From Erythrobacter sp. (GTDB taxonomy: Bacteria; Pseudomonadota; Alphaproteobacteria; Sphingomonadales; Sphingomonadaceae): 64,000 nt of DNA. Positions 42,254 to 59,793 of this stretch are shown here, piece after piece. A program made the position numbers and the translations under genes. Position 1 is the stretch's first letter, and the number at the start of each line of letters is the position of its first letter. The stretch lies in the NCBI GenBank assembly GCA_030148605.1, contig JASBTD010000047.1:1-64000 (forward strand). Reading direction: 5' to 3'. The notes under the pieces are model-generated. The model was not told the origin of the DNA. It did not search any database and was given only the letters and a program-made list of their open reading frames with translations.

Positions 42254-42413
42254 GTCTGCTTACGACCCAATTGCGGACTTTGACGCACTCACTGAGATCA
42301 GGCGGTATGGAGCCACTCGCAATCGACCAATAGAGGCATTCTCAAGTCGAATGGCCACAAGCCTTTAGGCCGTCTTAACCTGTTAAAGGTCGAATGATGC
42401 ATGGAGATTGCCC

Positions 42414-50940: not shown

Positions 50941-51008
50941 TACGTTGACGCTGCGGGCATAGCCTGTCTAGGCGATGTCACGCATTCGTAGTCATCACAG
51001 GGGTTTTG

Positions 51009-52541
51009 ATGTCCGCCAATATCGCCGAAATGGAACGCCGCCGTGCATCTGCCAAGCTGGGTGGAGGGCAAAAGCGCATCGATGCGCAGCATGCCAAGGG
51101 CAAGCTGACCGCGCGCGAGCGGCTGGATGTGCTGCTTGACGAAGGTAGCTTCGAAGAACTCGATGCCTATGTCGAGCATGATTGCGTCGATTTCGGGATG
51201 CAGGACCAGAAGATCCCGGGTGACGGTGTGGTCACTGGCAGCGGGACGATCAATGGGCGGCTGGTCTATGTCTTCAGTCAGGACTTCACGGTTTTTGGCG
51301 GCAGTCTGTCGAAACGCCATGCGGAAAAGATCTGCAAGGTGATGGAAAGCGCGATGAAATATGGCGCGCCGGTGATCGGCCTGAATGACTCTGGCGGTGC
51401 GCGCATTCAGGAAGGCGTGGCGTCACTGGGCGGCTATGCCGATGTGTTCCAGCGCAATGTGCTCGCCAGCGGCGTCGTGCCGCAGATTTCGCTGATCATG
51501 GGGCCGTGTGCGGGCGGGGCGGTTTACAGCCCTGCGATGACGGATTTCATCTTCATGGTGAAAGACAGCTCCTACATGTTCGTGACCGGGCCGGATGTGG
51601 TGAAAACCGTCACCAATGAAGTCGTCACGCAGGAAGAACTGGGCGGAGCGGTAACGCACACCACCAAGACTTCGGTCGCCGATATCGCTTTCGAGAACGA
51701 CATTGAAGCGCTGCTGGCGACGCGTAACTTTTTCGATTACCTGCCACTGTCGAACCGCGAGGAAGTGCCTGAACGGCCCACCAGCGACCCGTTTGACCGC
51801 GAGGAAGCCTCGCTCGATACGCTGATCCCTGACAATCCCAACCAGCCTTACGATATGCACGAAGTGATCCGTAAGACGCTGGATGAAGGCGATTTCTTCG
51901 AGGTTCAGCCTGCGCATGCCGGCAATATCATCATCGGTTTTGGCCGGGTCGAAGGGCGCACTGTGGGTGTGGTTGCGAACCAGCCCATGGTGCTTGCGGG
52001 CGTGCTCGACATCAACTCGTCAAAGAAAGCCGCGCGTTTCGTGCGCTTCTGCGATGCGTTCGAGATTCCGATCCTCACCTTCGTCGACGTGCCTGGCTTC
52101 CTGCCCGGCACGAGCCAGGAGCATAACGGCATTATCAAGCACGGCGCGAAGCTGCTGTTCGCTTATGCCGAAGCGACGGTGCCCAAGATCACTGTGATCA
52201 CCCGCAAGGCCTATGGCGGGGCCTATGACGTGATGGCGTCAAAGCACCTGCGCGGCGACTTGAACTACGCCTGGCCGACCGCGGAAATCGCAGTGATGGG
52301 CGCGAAGGGCGCGGTGGAGATCATCTTCCGCCAGGATCGCGATGATCCGGACAAGATCGCGGAGAAAACGAAGGAGTATGAAGACCGGTTTGCGAACCCC
52401 TTTGTCGCCGCCCAGCGCGGCTATATCGACGAAGTGATCTACCCGCACGCAACACGGCGGCGCATCGCGCTGGGGCTTAGGAAGCTGCGCAACAAGCAGC
52501 TCGAGAACCCGTGGAAGAAGCACGATAATATTCCGCTGTGA
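51009..52541 (+). CDS. pccB: propionyl-CoA carboxylase beta chain
   Basis: 510 residues, carboxyltransferase. [46 protein letters not shown] and [15 protein letters not shown] are PccB motifs, including both oxyanion-hole glycine pairs. With biotinylated PccA it makes methylmalonyl-CoA. It heads the group pccB, an 82-residue protein, mce, enoyl-CoA hydratase and the mutase. The ATG at 51009 is preferred over a TTG one codon earlier. Confidence 0.95.
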
Positions 52542-52549
52542 GGTGACTG

Positions 52550-52798
52550 ATGGATAGTTTTGATGCCTTCGGATTGTTTTGGTCTGGCGGTGTGCTGCTG
52601 ATGATGGTTGTCTCTACCGCTTGGGCGATCAACGACCTTAAGTCAGGAAGCGCCCGAATGAATTGGATGGGATTCGGCGACCGCGTTCATCGTTATGAGG
52701 AACCGTTTGAATTTTGGCTTGCCGTAGGGTCGAAATTTCTGGTGCTTCCAGTTGGCGCCTTCATGCTCTGGTTCGCGTCGGACATCTACTGGAGATGA
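52550..52798 (+). CDS. small two-helix membrane protein
   Basis: 82 residues with two hydrophobic helices (FGLFWSGGVLLMMVVSTAW and FWLAVGSKFLVLPVGAFMLW) and a charged loop between them. No family is recognised. It starts eight bases after pccB, so it is in the propionyl-CoA operon. The GGAG in its last codons (52791-52794) lies eight bases before ATGAAACTCGGC at 52803, the duplicated copy of the mce start. Confidence 0.7.
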   Translation: MDSFDAFGLFWSGGVLLMMVVSTAWAINDLKSGSARMNWMGFGDRVHRYEEPFEFWLAVGSKFLVLPVGAFMLWFASDIYWR

Positions 52799-52823
52799 GA
52801 GTATGAAACTCGGCCTTCCTGAT

Positions 52824-52909
52824 CGTCATTGCGAGCGTAGCGAAGCAATCCAGCGCGATTCGCGTGACATTCTGGATTGGCACGGCGACTGCGTCGTCTC
52901 GCAATGACG
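52824..52909. repeat. palindromic repeat, left of the GIY-YIG gene
   Basis: It opens CGTCATTGCGAGCGTAGCGA and closes CGCAATGACG. Inner arms CAATCCAG and CTGGATTG also pair, so it folds into a long imperfect stem. Its last bases supply the ATG of the GIY-YIG gene. Confidence 0.85.
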
Positions 52910-53206
52910 TGGCAAAAGCGGCCTTGCGTTTACATGATGGCCAATAAGCGCAACGCCACAATCTACACCGGCGTCACGTCGGACTTGCCCAAGCGGGTTT
53001 GGCAGCACCGCGAAGAAACTTTCGATGGTTTCACAAAGCGCTATGGTTGCAAGATGCTGGTATGGTTCGAACTGCACGAAACAATGGAAAACGCCATCCT
53101 GAGGGAGAAGCAGATCAAAGCTGGAAGCAGGAAATCGAAGCTCGCCTTGATAGAGGTACAGAATCCGGCTTGGCGTGATCTGTTCGACGATATCGCCCAA
53201 GGATAG
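52904..53206 (+). CDS. GIY-YIG nuclease-family protein
   Basis: 100 residues, a single GIY-YIG domain. CVYMMAN and IYTGVTSD correspond to the GIY and YIG strands, KRVWQHR provides the catalytic Arg region, and ILREKQIKAGSRKSKLALIE holds the catalytic Glu (about 68). No DNA-binding domain is attached, as in the short UvrC/URI-like group. The ATG at 52904 lies inside the end of the left repeat, and the stop is six bases before the right repeat. The gene is on the strand of the propionyl-CoA genes but unrelated to them in function. Confidence 0.9.
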   Translation: MTWQKRPCVYMMANKRNATIYTGVTSDLPKRVWQHREETFDGFTKRYGCKMLVWFELHETMENAILREKQIKAGSRKSKLALIEVQNPAWRDLFDDIAQG

Positions 53207-53212
53207 ATTTTG

Positions 53213-53289
53213 CGTCATTGCGAGCGTAGCGAGGCAATCCAGTCCTGCATTATCTGGATCGCCACGGCCCTTCGGGCCTCGCGATGACG
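53213..53289. repeat. palindromic repeat, right of the GIY-YIG gene
   Basis: It opens CGTCATTGCGAGCGTAGCGA, as the left copy does, and closes CTCGCGATGACG. It carries an inner GGCCCTTCGGGCC hairpin that the left copy lacks. It is in the same orientation as the left copy. Confidence 0.85.
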
Positions 53290-53307
53290 ATGAAGAAAGA
53301 AGGAATG

Positions 53308-53769
53308 ATGAAACTCGGCAGACTTAATCACATCGGCGTCGCAACGCCCTCGATCGCGGATTCCATCGCGCATTACCGCGACACGATGGGCGCGACGCAT
53401 ATTCACGAGCCGTTCGACCTGCCAGAACAGGGCGTGAAGGTCTGCTTCGTCGATACGCCGACCCATTCGACAGGCTCAGGGCAGGCCGATTCAGGTATGA
53501 ACGGAACGCAGATCGAACTGATCGAGCCACTCGGCCCCGACAGCGCGATCAACAATTTCCTCGAGAAGAACCCGCTCGGCGGGCAACATCATGTCTGTTT
53601 CGAAGTGCCCGATATTGCCGAGGCGCGCGCGGAATTCGAAGGCATGGGCAAGCGCATCCTTGGCCCCACGCGCATCGGTGCGCATGGCACGCCTATCTTT
53701 TTCGTCCATCCCAAAGACATGCAGGGCATGCTTACCGAGATTATGGAAACGCCGAAAGGCAATCATTGA
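53308..53769 (+). CDS. mce: methylmalonyl-CoA epimerase with an in-frame repeat-derived insert
   Basis: 153 residues, VOC superfamily. LGRLNHIGVATPSIADSI at the start, QIELIEPLG and GQHHVCFEVPDI with the metal-binding His, and the C-terminal MLTEIMETPKG are epimerase features. It interconverts the 2R and 2S forms of methylmalonyl-CoA between PccAB and the mutase. Residues about 52-66 (THSTGSGQADSGMNG) interrupt the usual short loop before TQIEL. Their DNA contains the dispersed repeat core TTCGACAGGCTCAGG. The start was rebuilt by the adjacent cassette. Confidence 0.92.
   Translation: MKLGRLNHIGVATPSIADSIAHYRDTMGATHIHEPFDLPEQGVKVCFVDTPTHSTGSGQADSGMNGTQIELIEPLGPDSAINNFLEKNPLGGQHHVCFEVPDIAEARAEFEGMGKRILGPTRIGAHGTPIFFVHPKDMQGMLTEIMETPKGNH
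53462..53506. repeat. repeat-derived 45-base insert inside mce
   Basis: It holds ATTCGACAGGCTCAGGGC and, near its end, TATGAACGGA, both recognisable from the repeat family at 39079 and 53781. The length of about 45 bases keeps the frame. Exact edges are uncertain without an aligned homologue. Confidence 0.6.
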
Positions 53770-53780
53770 GCCAACAAGGC

Positions 53781-53853
53781 CCGTTCGCCCTGAGCTAGTC
53801 GAAGGGTCTTATCGAACGGGCCGCTCATACTTCGACAGGCTCAGCACGAACGG
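53781..53853. repeat. dispersed inverted repeat between mce and the enoyl-CoA hydratase gene
   Basis: The left arm is CCGTTCGCCCTGAGCTAGTC and the right arm is CTTCGACAGGCTCAGCACG, with GAACGG at the end. It is an imperfect stem of the family also seen at 39079-39146. Confidence 0.75.
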
Positions 53854-54659: not shown

Positions 54660-54739
54660 CGTCATTCCCGCGAAAGCGGGAATCCAGCTTGCTGCTCAAG
54701 TGGCTCCGAACTGGATCCCCGCTTTCGCGGGGATGACGA
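54660..54739. repeat. long near-perfect inverted repeat upstream of the mutase gene
   Basis: The left arm opens CGTCATTCCCGCGAAAGCGG and ends ATCCAG. The right arm opens CTGGATCCCCGC and ends GGGGATGACGA. The arms pair over about 28 bases with one or two mismatches. Each arm also forms its own CCCGCGAAAGCGGG-type hairpin. It fills most of the gap between the hydratase and mutase genes. Confidence 0.85.
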
Positions 54740-59700: not shown

Positions 59701-59793
59701 TCGTCACCCTGAACTTGTTTCAGGTTCCATCGTGCGTCACACGCGGTAGATTGAGGTCGCGGGATGGATGCTGAAACGAGTTCAGCATGACGA
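59701..59793. repeat. inverted repeat between convergent pccA and cyclase genes
   Basis: The left arm opens TCGTCACCCTGAACTTGTTT and the right arm closes CGAGTTCAGCATGACGA. The arms share CGTCA, CTGAAC and GTTTCAG in pairing positions. It is a fourth repeat family, and its position between convergent genes suits a bidirectional terminator. Confidence 0.75.

Follow-up and report, generated by a model that had tools for sequence, protein, structure and literature searches.

Small nuclease genes flanked by palindromic REPs are known from the RAYT (TnpA-REP) systems, in which an HUH (Y1) transposase goes with GTAG-tagged REPs (REPtron, REPIN), REP dimers are dispersed and the REP type tracks the enzyme type. 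In E. coli, the presence of the RAYT gene is reported to go with higher numbers of REPs (PMC8049555). A second superfamily, the CGTC-tagged REPs, is characterized by a CGTC head, a stem beginning with AT, a CCA tail and HH dimers; its members are spread over the alphaproteobacteria and occur also in Neisseria, Rickettsia and Wolbachia; they include Neisseria dRS3, with which the CGTC-1 repeats are equated, and Rickettsia RPE-4 and RPE-6 (Di Nocera, 2013; PMC3733652). The same paper describes these repeats as having no associated transposase genes and apparently no dedicated transposase, and leaves open what moves them (PMC3733652). Among the matches listed in PubMed Central, a source that leaves preprints and most subscription papers outside, no paper joined GIY-YIG genes to REPs, nor are the two joined in the accessible parts of PMC8049555, PMC1564403 and PMC6006769. 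Single-domain GIY-YIG proteins of the UPF0213 type (1zg2, 1ywl) were deposited as hypothetical proteins. The free-standing GIY-YIG homing endonucleases, selfish and intronless, are of the phage Seg type. GIY-YIG homing endonucleases are described as carrying extra DNA-binding modules such as NUMODs, apart from a subgroup that lacks them.

The locus considered here lies in a 64,000-nucleotide stretch of an Erythrobacter sp. contig (JASBTD010000047.1; "the window"). Its GIY-YIG gene (52904..53206, + strand; 100 aa from the ATG at 52904) stands in the spacer (52542-53307) between a presumed pccB-like carboxyltransferase gene (51006..52541, +), which served as the upstream anchor for locus comparisons, and the methylmalonyl-CoA epimerase gene mce (53308..53769, +; TIGR03081 above cut-off). 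An 82-aa ORF (52550..52798, +) has no family match and no relative in the 58 loci searched; a weak one (31%) is present in L068. The mce start sequence ATGAAACTCGGC occurs exactly at 52803-52814 and 53308-53319 and at no other mismatch-free site in the window; the right copy is the working start, and the left one (+) is a remnant that begins 4 bases past the stop of the 82-aa ORF, with GGAG 8 bases ahead of it. A pair of REPs flanks the gene on either side. The left dimer has a CGTC-tagged REP as its outward end (52824..52852, +; pattern and hairpin detector) and an inverted second REP (52872..52909, -; sequence and folding) that contains the nuclease ATG within CTCGCAATGACG (52898-52909). The right dimer begins with a CGTC-tagged REP (53213..53241, +; pattern and hairpin detector), 6 bases after the end of the nuclease stop (53204-53206), and has an inverted REP as its outward end (53255..53289, -; pattern, detector and folding). 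The original prediction had placed the gene between two repeats of the same orientation; + repeats do stand on both sides, and each turns out to belong to an inverted REP pair with CGTC at the outer ends. Rfam gave no match at the gathering threshold over 52500-53800.

The assignment of the protein rests on family match, alignment and structure model. PF01541 is its sole Pfam match (E 5.3e-14, residues 16-88 of 109), with no NUMOD-like extra DNA-binding modules among the Pfam matches. The match lies above the cut-off and the AlphaFold model has a mean pLDDT of 86.9, in agreement with a GIY-YIG fold. Across 27 aligned sequences Y30, G32 and R40, at catalytic positions of the fold, are invariant and E77, likewise catalytic, nearly so. 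A fold search gave UPF0213, the UvrC N-domain and Slx1 as top matches, all weak (best E 2e-3, TM 0.4-0.5, none at E 1e-3), and a profile search placed the nearest solved relatives among UPF0213-type proteins (1zg2, E 2e-8; 1ywl, E 2e-5). The catalytic fold, the selfish spread and the lack of an intron are shared with free-standing homing endonucleases. However, no second domain is seen here, the bounds are inverted REPs and many different sites are occupied. Phages contained no homologue at E 1e-5; viral contigs contained one locus with a homologue. Among C11-type copies (C11 is another unit of the same genome, see below), four intact ones differ by dN 0.07-0.10 versus dS 0.9-1.9, and the nuclease gene is under purifying selection; two of seven C11-type sequences have no long ORF.

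The repeats fit the published description of CGTC-tagged REPs. Those in the window have the CGTC head, the stem beginning with AT and the CCA tail, and in the window's genome they are dispersed, mostly as HH dimers; the REP of the C11 unit has the 8-bp stem and 4-base loop of family 1 (PMC3733652). Folded as single DNA strands, the left pair (86 bases) and the right pair (77 bases) reach z scores of -5.1 and -4.0 relative to shuffles, while the left REP by itself is not outstanding (z -0.3). With up to one mismatch, the repeat pattern occurs at 4 sites in the window versus 0.94 expected. The genome contains 28 exact CGTCATTGCGAG sites versus one for the reversed pattern, and 22 of these form 11 pairs, always + then -, within 140 bp. 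The window repeat is thus in excess of chance. Elsewhere in the window, an HH dimer of the CGTC-1 type (CGTCATTCCCGCGAAAGCGGGAATCCA and an inverted partner; 54660-54738) precedes the next large gene and forms part of ORFs there, and a further CGTC hairpin is found at 59765-59792.

The combination of gene and repeats is not confined to this spacer. The window's own genome has five PF01541 genes. One is uvrC, with no hairpin repeat in 3.2 kb; all four others (C34, C11, C24 and C21) have hairpin repeats on both sides, of differing kinds. The C11 gene lies between inverted copies of another CGTC repeat, the C24 gene between two hairpins of a third kind, and the C21 gene between inverted 30-bp repeats (CGTCTGCCC...) that together span 355 bp and were overlooked by the detectors. 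Homologues were gathered by protein similarity from 149 genomes of the family, from one genome per species of a large collection (56 loci), and from plasmids (8 of 33 records taken in), viral contigs and the extra copies of multi-copy genomes, giving 115 distinct units. Of these, named contigs contributed 54, family loci 29, multi-copy genomes 19, plasmids 8, the own genome 4 and viral contigs 1. With REP types set after inspection of the first loci, and a stem-backed typed detector written after the misses of the first detector, a typed REP hairpin lies within 190 bp in 104 of the 115 units and on both sides in 85, compared with 7/107 (either side) and 0/107 (both) for control segments 700-890 bp off. 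Control ORFs of at least 100 aa at the same loci gave 18/143 and 3/143, and shuffled flanks 9/575 and 0/575. REPs occur at 6.2 per kb within 190 bp, and their density drops to 0.25 per kb in the range of 760-1140 bp. Reduction to one unit per 80% protein cluster leaves 85/95 with a REP on either side and 70/95 on both.

Other detectors were also applied. A strict version scored 32 of 57 named or viral loci as having a hairpin on either side, a relaxed one 58/115 within 200 bp, and a regex version was given up on account of an excessive control rate (40/107); the type-free detector found only 62/115 (either) and 36/115 (both), against controls of 5/107 and 0/107. In a phylum sample of high-scoring matches, with weak ones (other GIY-YIG families) as well as L267, L280 and L282 left out, the typed detector gave 38/66 and 22/66 (controls 3/58 and 1/58) and the type-free detector 46/66 and 27/66 (controls 2/58 and 0/58). 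There, 28 of 66 loci are untyped, many of them with GTCAT-headed hairpins of other stems (by eye, uncounted). The homologue of N. gonorrhoeae sits in an array of CGTC-1-like repeats. The arrangement is also stereotyped: the commonest form has one REP per side, + then - (33 units), the outermost REP faces outward in 80/95 left and 75/94 right flanks, and units with one REP per end measure 351-510 bp (26 measured). The association of the GIY-YIG gene with CGTC-REPs is therefore general and its geometry stereotyped. Homologues without any tie to the repeats would have counted against the original prediction; instead, its idea of a single-domain GIY-YIG gene that travels with REPs in the manner of RAYTs is borne out and widened by the association itself, by the matching of types and by dispersed copies.

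The type of REP follows the clade of the nuclease. A tree was built from 108 proteins, with 7 of the 115 units omitted because of low identity or stops; it has few columns and many weak forks. The three REP types can be placed on it with 10 changes, whereas 500 shuffles required 43.2 on average and never fewer than 35. The ATTGCGAG type is confined to units whose protein is at least 60% identical to that of the window (35/45, versus 0/70 below). A KxG motif between model helices 70-82 and 85-95 is present in 33 of 35 ATTGCGAG-type units and in one two-type unit, and the remaining typed units have a Trp or Tyr segment at this position, a pattern that rests on few evolutionary switches. The segment is a candidate for recognition, as one residue pattern switches along with the repeat type.

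Copy numbers follow the same matching. In comparisons that ignore kinship, the 14 of 149 family genomes with the closest homologues have a median of 28 CGTCATTGCGAG sites versus 0 (p 5e-9), and the same 14 show no excess of the non-cognate CGTCATTCCCGCG (1 versus 1, p 0.70). Conversely, six genomes with a CGTCATTCCCGCG-flanked nuclease, picked from the fetched loci rather than from all such genomes, have 4-33 CGTCATTCCCGCG sites versus a median of 1 (p 8e-4, kinship ignored). For REPs of two types together, the 104 homologue-positive genomes have a median of 8.5 and the 45 negative ones a median of 1 (p 6e-8), and the 24 Y1-positive genomes a median of 10.5 versus 3 (p 0.04), again with kinship ignored. 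A GIY-YIG homologue is found in 27 of 29 REP-rich genomes and a Y1 transposase in 9 of 29; 40 of 78 REP-poor genomes still have a GIY-YIG homologue. REPs without a homologue occur in G128 (45 copies), G018 (22), G032 (14) and G136 (10). The system thus resembles RAYT/REP in that a REP-flanked nuclease has a REP type that follows the enzyme type. However, the enzyme is GIY-YIG and not HUH/Y1 (PF01541 only, and no PF01797 match in the genome), the tag is CGTC and not GTAG, and the unit is ~350-500 bp long and often present in several copies per genome. It is RAYT/REP-like in its working, yet not a member, as both enzyme and tag differ. A RAYT was also considered as the mover of the window's repeats and rejected on the same lack of a Y1 (PF01797) match in the own genome.

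That such units move is best seen in the C11 unit, which was compared with its flanks (2.6-kb query) with 61 genomes of the genus. Six full copies stand elsewhere in congeners (two each in G256 and G278, one each in G259 and G275), and one further copy is cut off by a contig end. Each of the six aligns with the query up to points 1-6 bp outside CGTC on one side and 1-2 bp outside GACG on the other, and terminal inverted repeats form the ends of the dispersed copies, as in insertion sequences. G670 retains both C11 flanks (81% and 83% identity), separated by 18 bp where the window's genome (G000) has 484; at this site without the unit about 96 bases are unalignable. The two copies of G278 lie on different contigs and are 95.6% alike, with the ORF intact in one and not in the other; their right flanks share 47 bp, and the left flanks in G256 share 209 bp at 74% (offset 66 bp). 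Among other groups, the G111 copies are 96% and 85% alike and the four of G135 89-94% alike; here homology extends ~25-45 bp past the left REP and, in G111, past the right one too (by eye). At L167 (G111), 7 of 12 relatives with both flanks have unalignable spacers of 27-114 bp versus ~1,090 bp, and Sinorhizobium and Rhizobium plasmids yielded no clean empty site. The C11-type unit is well supported as a discrete mobile segment with REP ends, and the ends are not equally sharp in all groups.

No exact flank repeat was seen by eye at the six C11-type copies (L359-L364). With identical units merged, direct repeats around 113 units exceed those of random left/right pairings (31 above the 95% level of the null, 16 above the 99% level). 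The idea that target duplication generally marks these units was rejected, as many of the strongest direct repeats are copies of REPs or other repeats and not duplicated targets. All six C11-type units have a dispersed GTCCGCTTNCGACCC...GCGGACA motif (up to 6 mismatches) nearby, three of them on both sides, where the unit stands between direct, non-identical GTCCGC...GCGGAC copies. This may reflect a target preference of the C11-type copies; the motif lies within 300 bp of only 9 of the 115 main-set units. A copy with 2 mismatches is present in the window at 42254-42279.

Our preferred reading, with a probability of roughly 0.7, is that the window holds one of a large class of minimal mobile units in which the GIY-YIG nuclease is the cognate enzyme of its CGTC-REP family. 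In each unit, one single-domain GIY-YIG gene would be framed by two CGTC-tagged REPs (or REP dimers) that are inverted relative to each other. The nuclease would recognize its own REP as a hairpin or cruciform, nick or cut at the CGTC ends, and copy or move its own unit. It would also move, in trans, the gene-less HH dimers, which have the same outward CGTC...GACG ends as the unit and would represent its non-autonomous (MITE- or REPIN-like) form; units and dimers alike would spread by joining or repair copying. Recognition and cutting of the REP, catalysis by the nuclease and movement of dimers in trans are the predicted parts of this scheme. In contrast to the CGTC-REP account, which reports no associated transposase gene (PMC3733652), the GIY-YIG gene would here encode the associated enzyme, and its product may well be the mover that this widespread class of bacterial repeats had seemed to lack.

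The rival that survives best, though we consider it unlikely, makes the gene a late arrival. A free-standing homing-type GIY-YIG endonuclease would cut REP dimers made by something else, and its gene would be copied in as the double-strand break is repaired by way of REP homology. Each unit would then be a dimer that has received a gene in its middle. This is consistent with HH dimers that already carry the ends of the unit, with the 8 units that have a whole dimer at either flank (+- / +-), with the REP-rich genomes that lack the gene, and with the sequence shared outside the left REP by the G135 and G111 copies, which is compatible with homology-driven copying. However, the C11-type copies stand at different sites and end at the outermost CGTC, which fits movement of the whole unit better, and REP numbers track the matching gene type.

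A second rival is the original prediction's account of the window itself, in which insertion at the mce start produced a target duplication of 12 bp or longer. The exact 12-mer on either side of the unit suggests it, and so do the left copy in G014 (54 bp, 3 mismatches), which stops 5 bases before CGTC, and that in L018, which includes the region upstream of the start and stops one base before a CGTC repeat. The comparison covered 102 mce loci, with pccB upstream in the stretch for 82. A GIY-YIG gene stands between pccB and mce at ten loci, and a clear left copy is found at two of these, the window (12 bp) and G014; the other eight have none. L226 has a 7-base copy (by eye), L066, L218, L230, L246 and L257 have a unit within ~40 bp of pccB and no left copy, and the unit directly follows pccB, also with no copy, in G262, L246 and L257, which belong to the same genus. 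Conversely, eight loci carry left copies with no GIY-YIG gene (L017, L018, L022 by eye only, L216, L224, L232, L241 and L242). Loci of this kind, with both direct copies but lacking the nuclease, are what the original prediction had named as evidence against itself, and they count against its duplication. Overall, five of ten left copies precede CGTC repeats (L006, L035, L017, L018, L224), and the other five precede inserts without them (L022, L216, L232, L241, L242). Right copies do not adjoin the repeat, and at two loci, L017 and L216, most differences between the copies fall on third codon positions (8/9 and 5/6), like those of diverged alleles, a pattern other loci do not have. A target duplication is accordingly unlikely: as truncated mce starts also precede unrelated inserts and units occur without them, the 12-mer is better read as an mce start stranded by turnover of the spacer than as the footprint of an insertion.

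Alignments with G262, L246, L257, L237 and G014 are continuous through unit and mce, and give no evidence that the window's own unit has insertion-sequence-type ends. Compared with G262, nuclease and mce are 74% and 92% identical and pccB has a nucleotide identity of ~85%; compared with G014, the values are 77% and 73%. The unlike identities of nuclease and mce favour some exchange, and from the alignments the unit looks to have been inherited or exchanged together with the locus; it has probably long resided in the pccB-mce spacer. This spacer is itself a hotspot of turnover, with unrelated small ORFs and repeats, several of them behind a truncated mce start; that of L241 and L242 may, as a guess, hold a toxin-antitoxin-like pair.

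The last alternative, that REPs and GIY-YIG genes have no functional link and simply meet in permissive spacers, or that the nuclease is a housekeeping resolver of cruciforms whose position close to them is under selection, draws on the intergenic position of REPs and on the weakly scoring similarity to UvrC N-domain and to Slx1, a branched-DNA nuclease, and is very improbable given the same-locus controls, the matching of types on the tree, the copy numbers with their non-cognate control and the ends of the units.

Returning to the cognate-enzyme reading, a broader form of it, which we hold at even odds, is that GIY-YIG/REP units constitute a separate enzymatic class of bacterial transposable element, from which the CGTC REPs of Proteobacteria, Neisseria dRS3 among them, would derive. 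They would measure ~350-500 bp, encode one hydrolytic nuclease of ~90-110 aa and end in hairpins (CGTC-REPs), which would rank them with the smallest self-sufficient DNA elements. Each nuclease clade would read the REP that belongs to it, possibly by means of the helix-turn segment (KAGSRxxK versus KxWxRxWK). A cognate nuclease makes the question of the CGTC-REP mover testable with one small protein and a 30-base hairpin. If the reading is right, the REP life style has a second enzymatic solution, unrelated to the first, and mechanistic work gains a very small mobile unit.

Two further observations concern other repeats. In the pSymB record of Sinorhizobium meliloti (L143), a GIY-YIG gene is flanked by CTCATCCCTGTGCTCGTCACAGGGATCC repeats, possibly RIME-type repeats of rhizobia, and this stretch matches up to 27 places in single Sinorhizobium records. 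In the window, mce contains an in-frame insert of 8 residues (53463-53481, HSTGSGQA region) that is absent from the four congeners compared; its DNA corresponds, with at most 2 mismatches, to the CCCTGAGCTTGTCGAAGGG repeat that bounds the C21 GIY-YIG unit, and a second copy starts at 53788.
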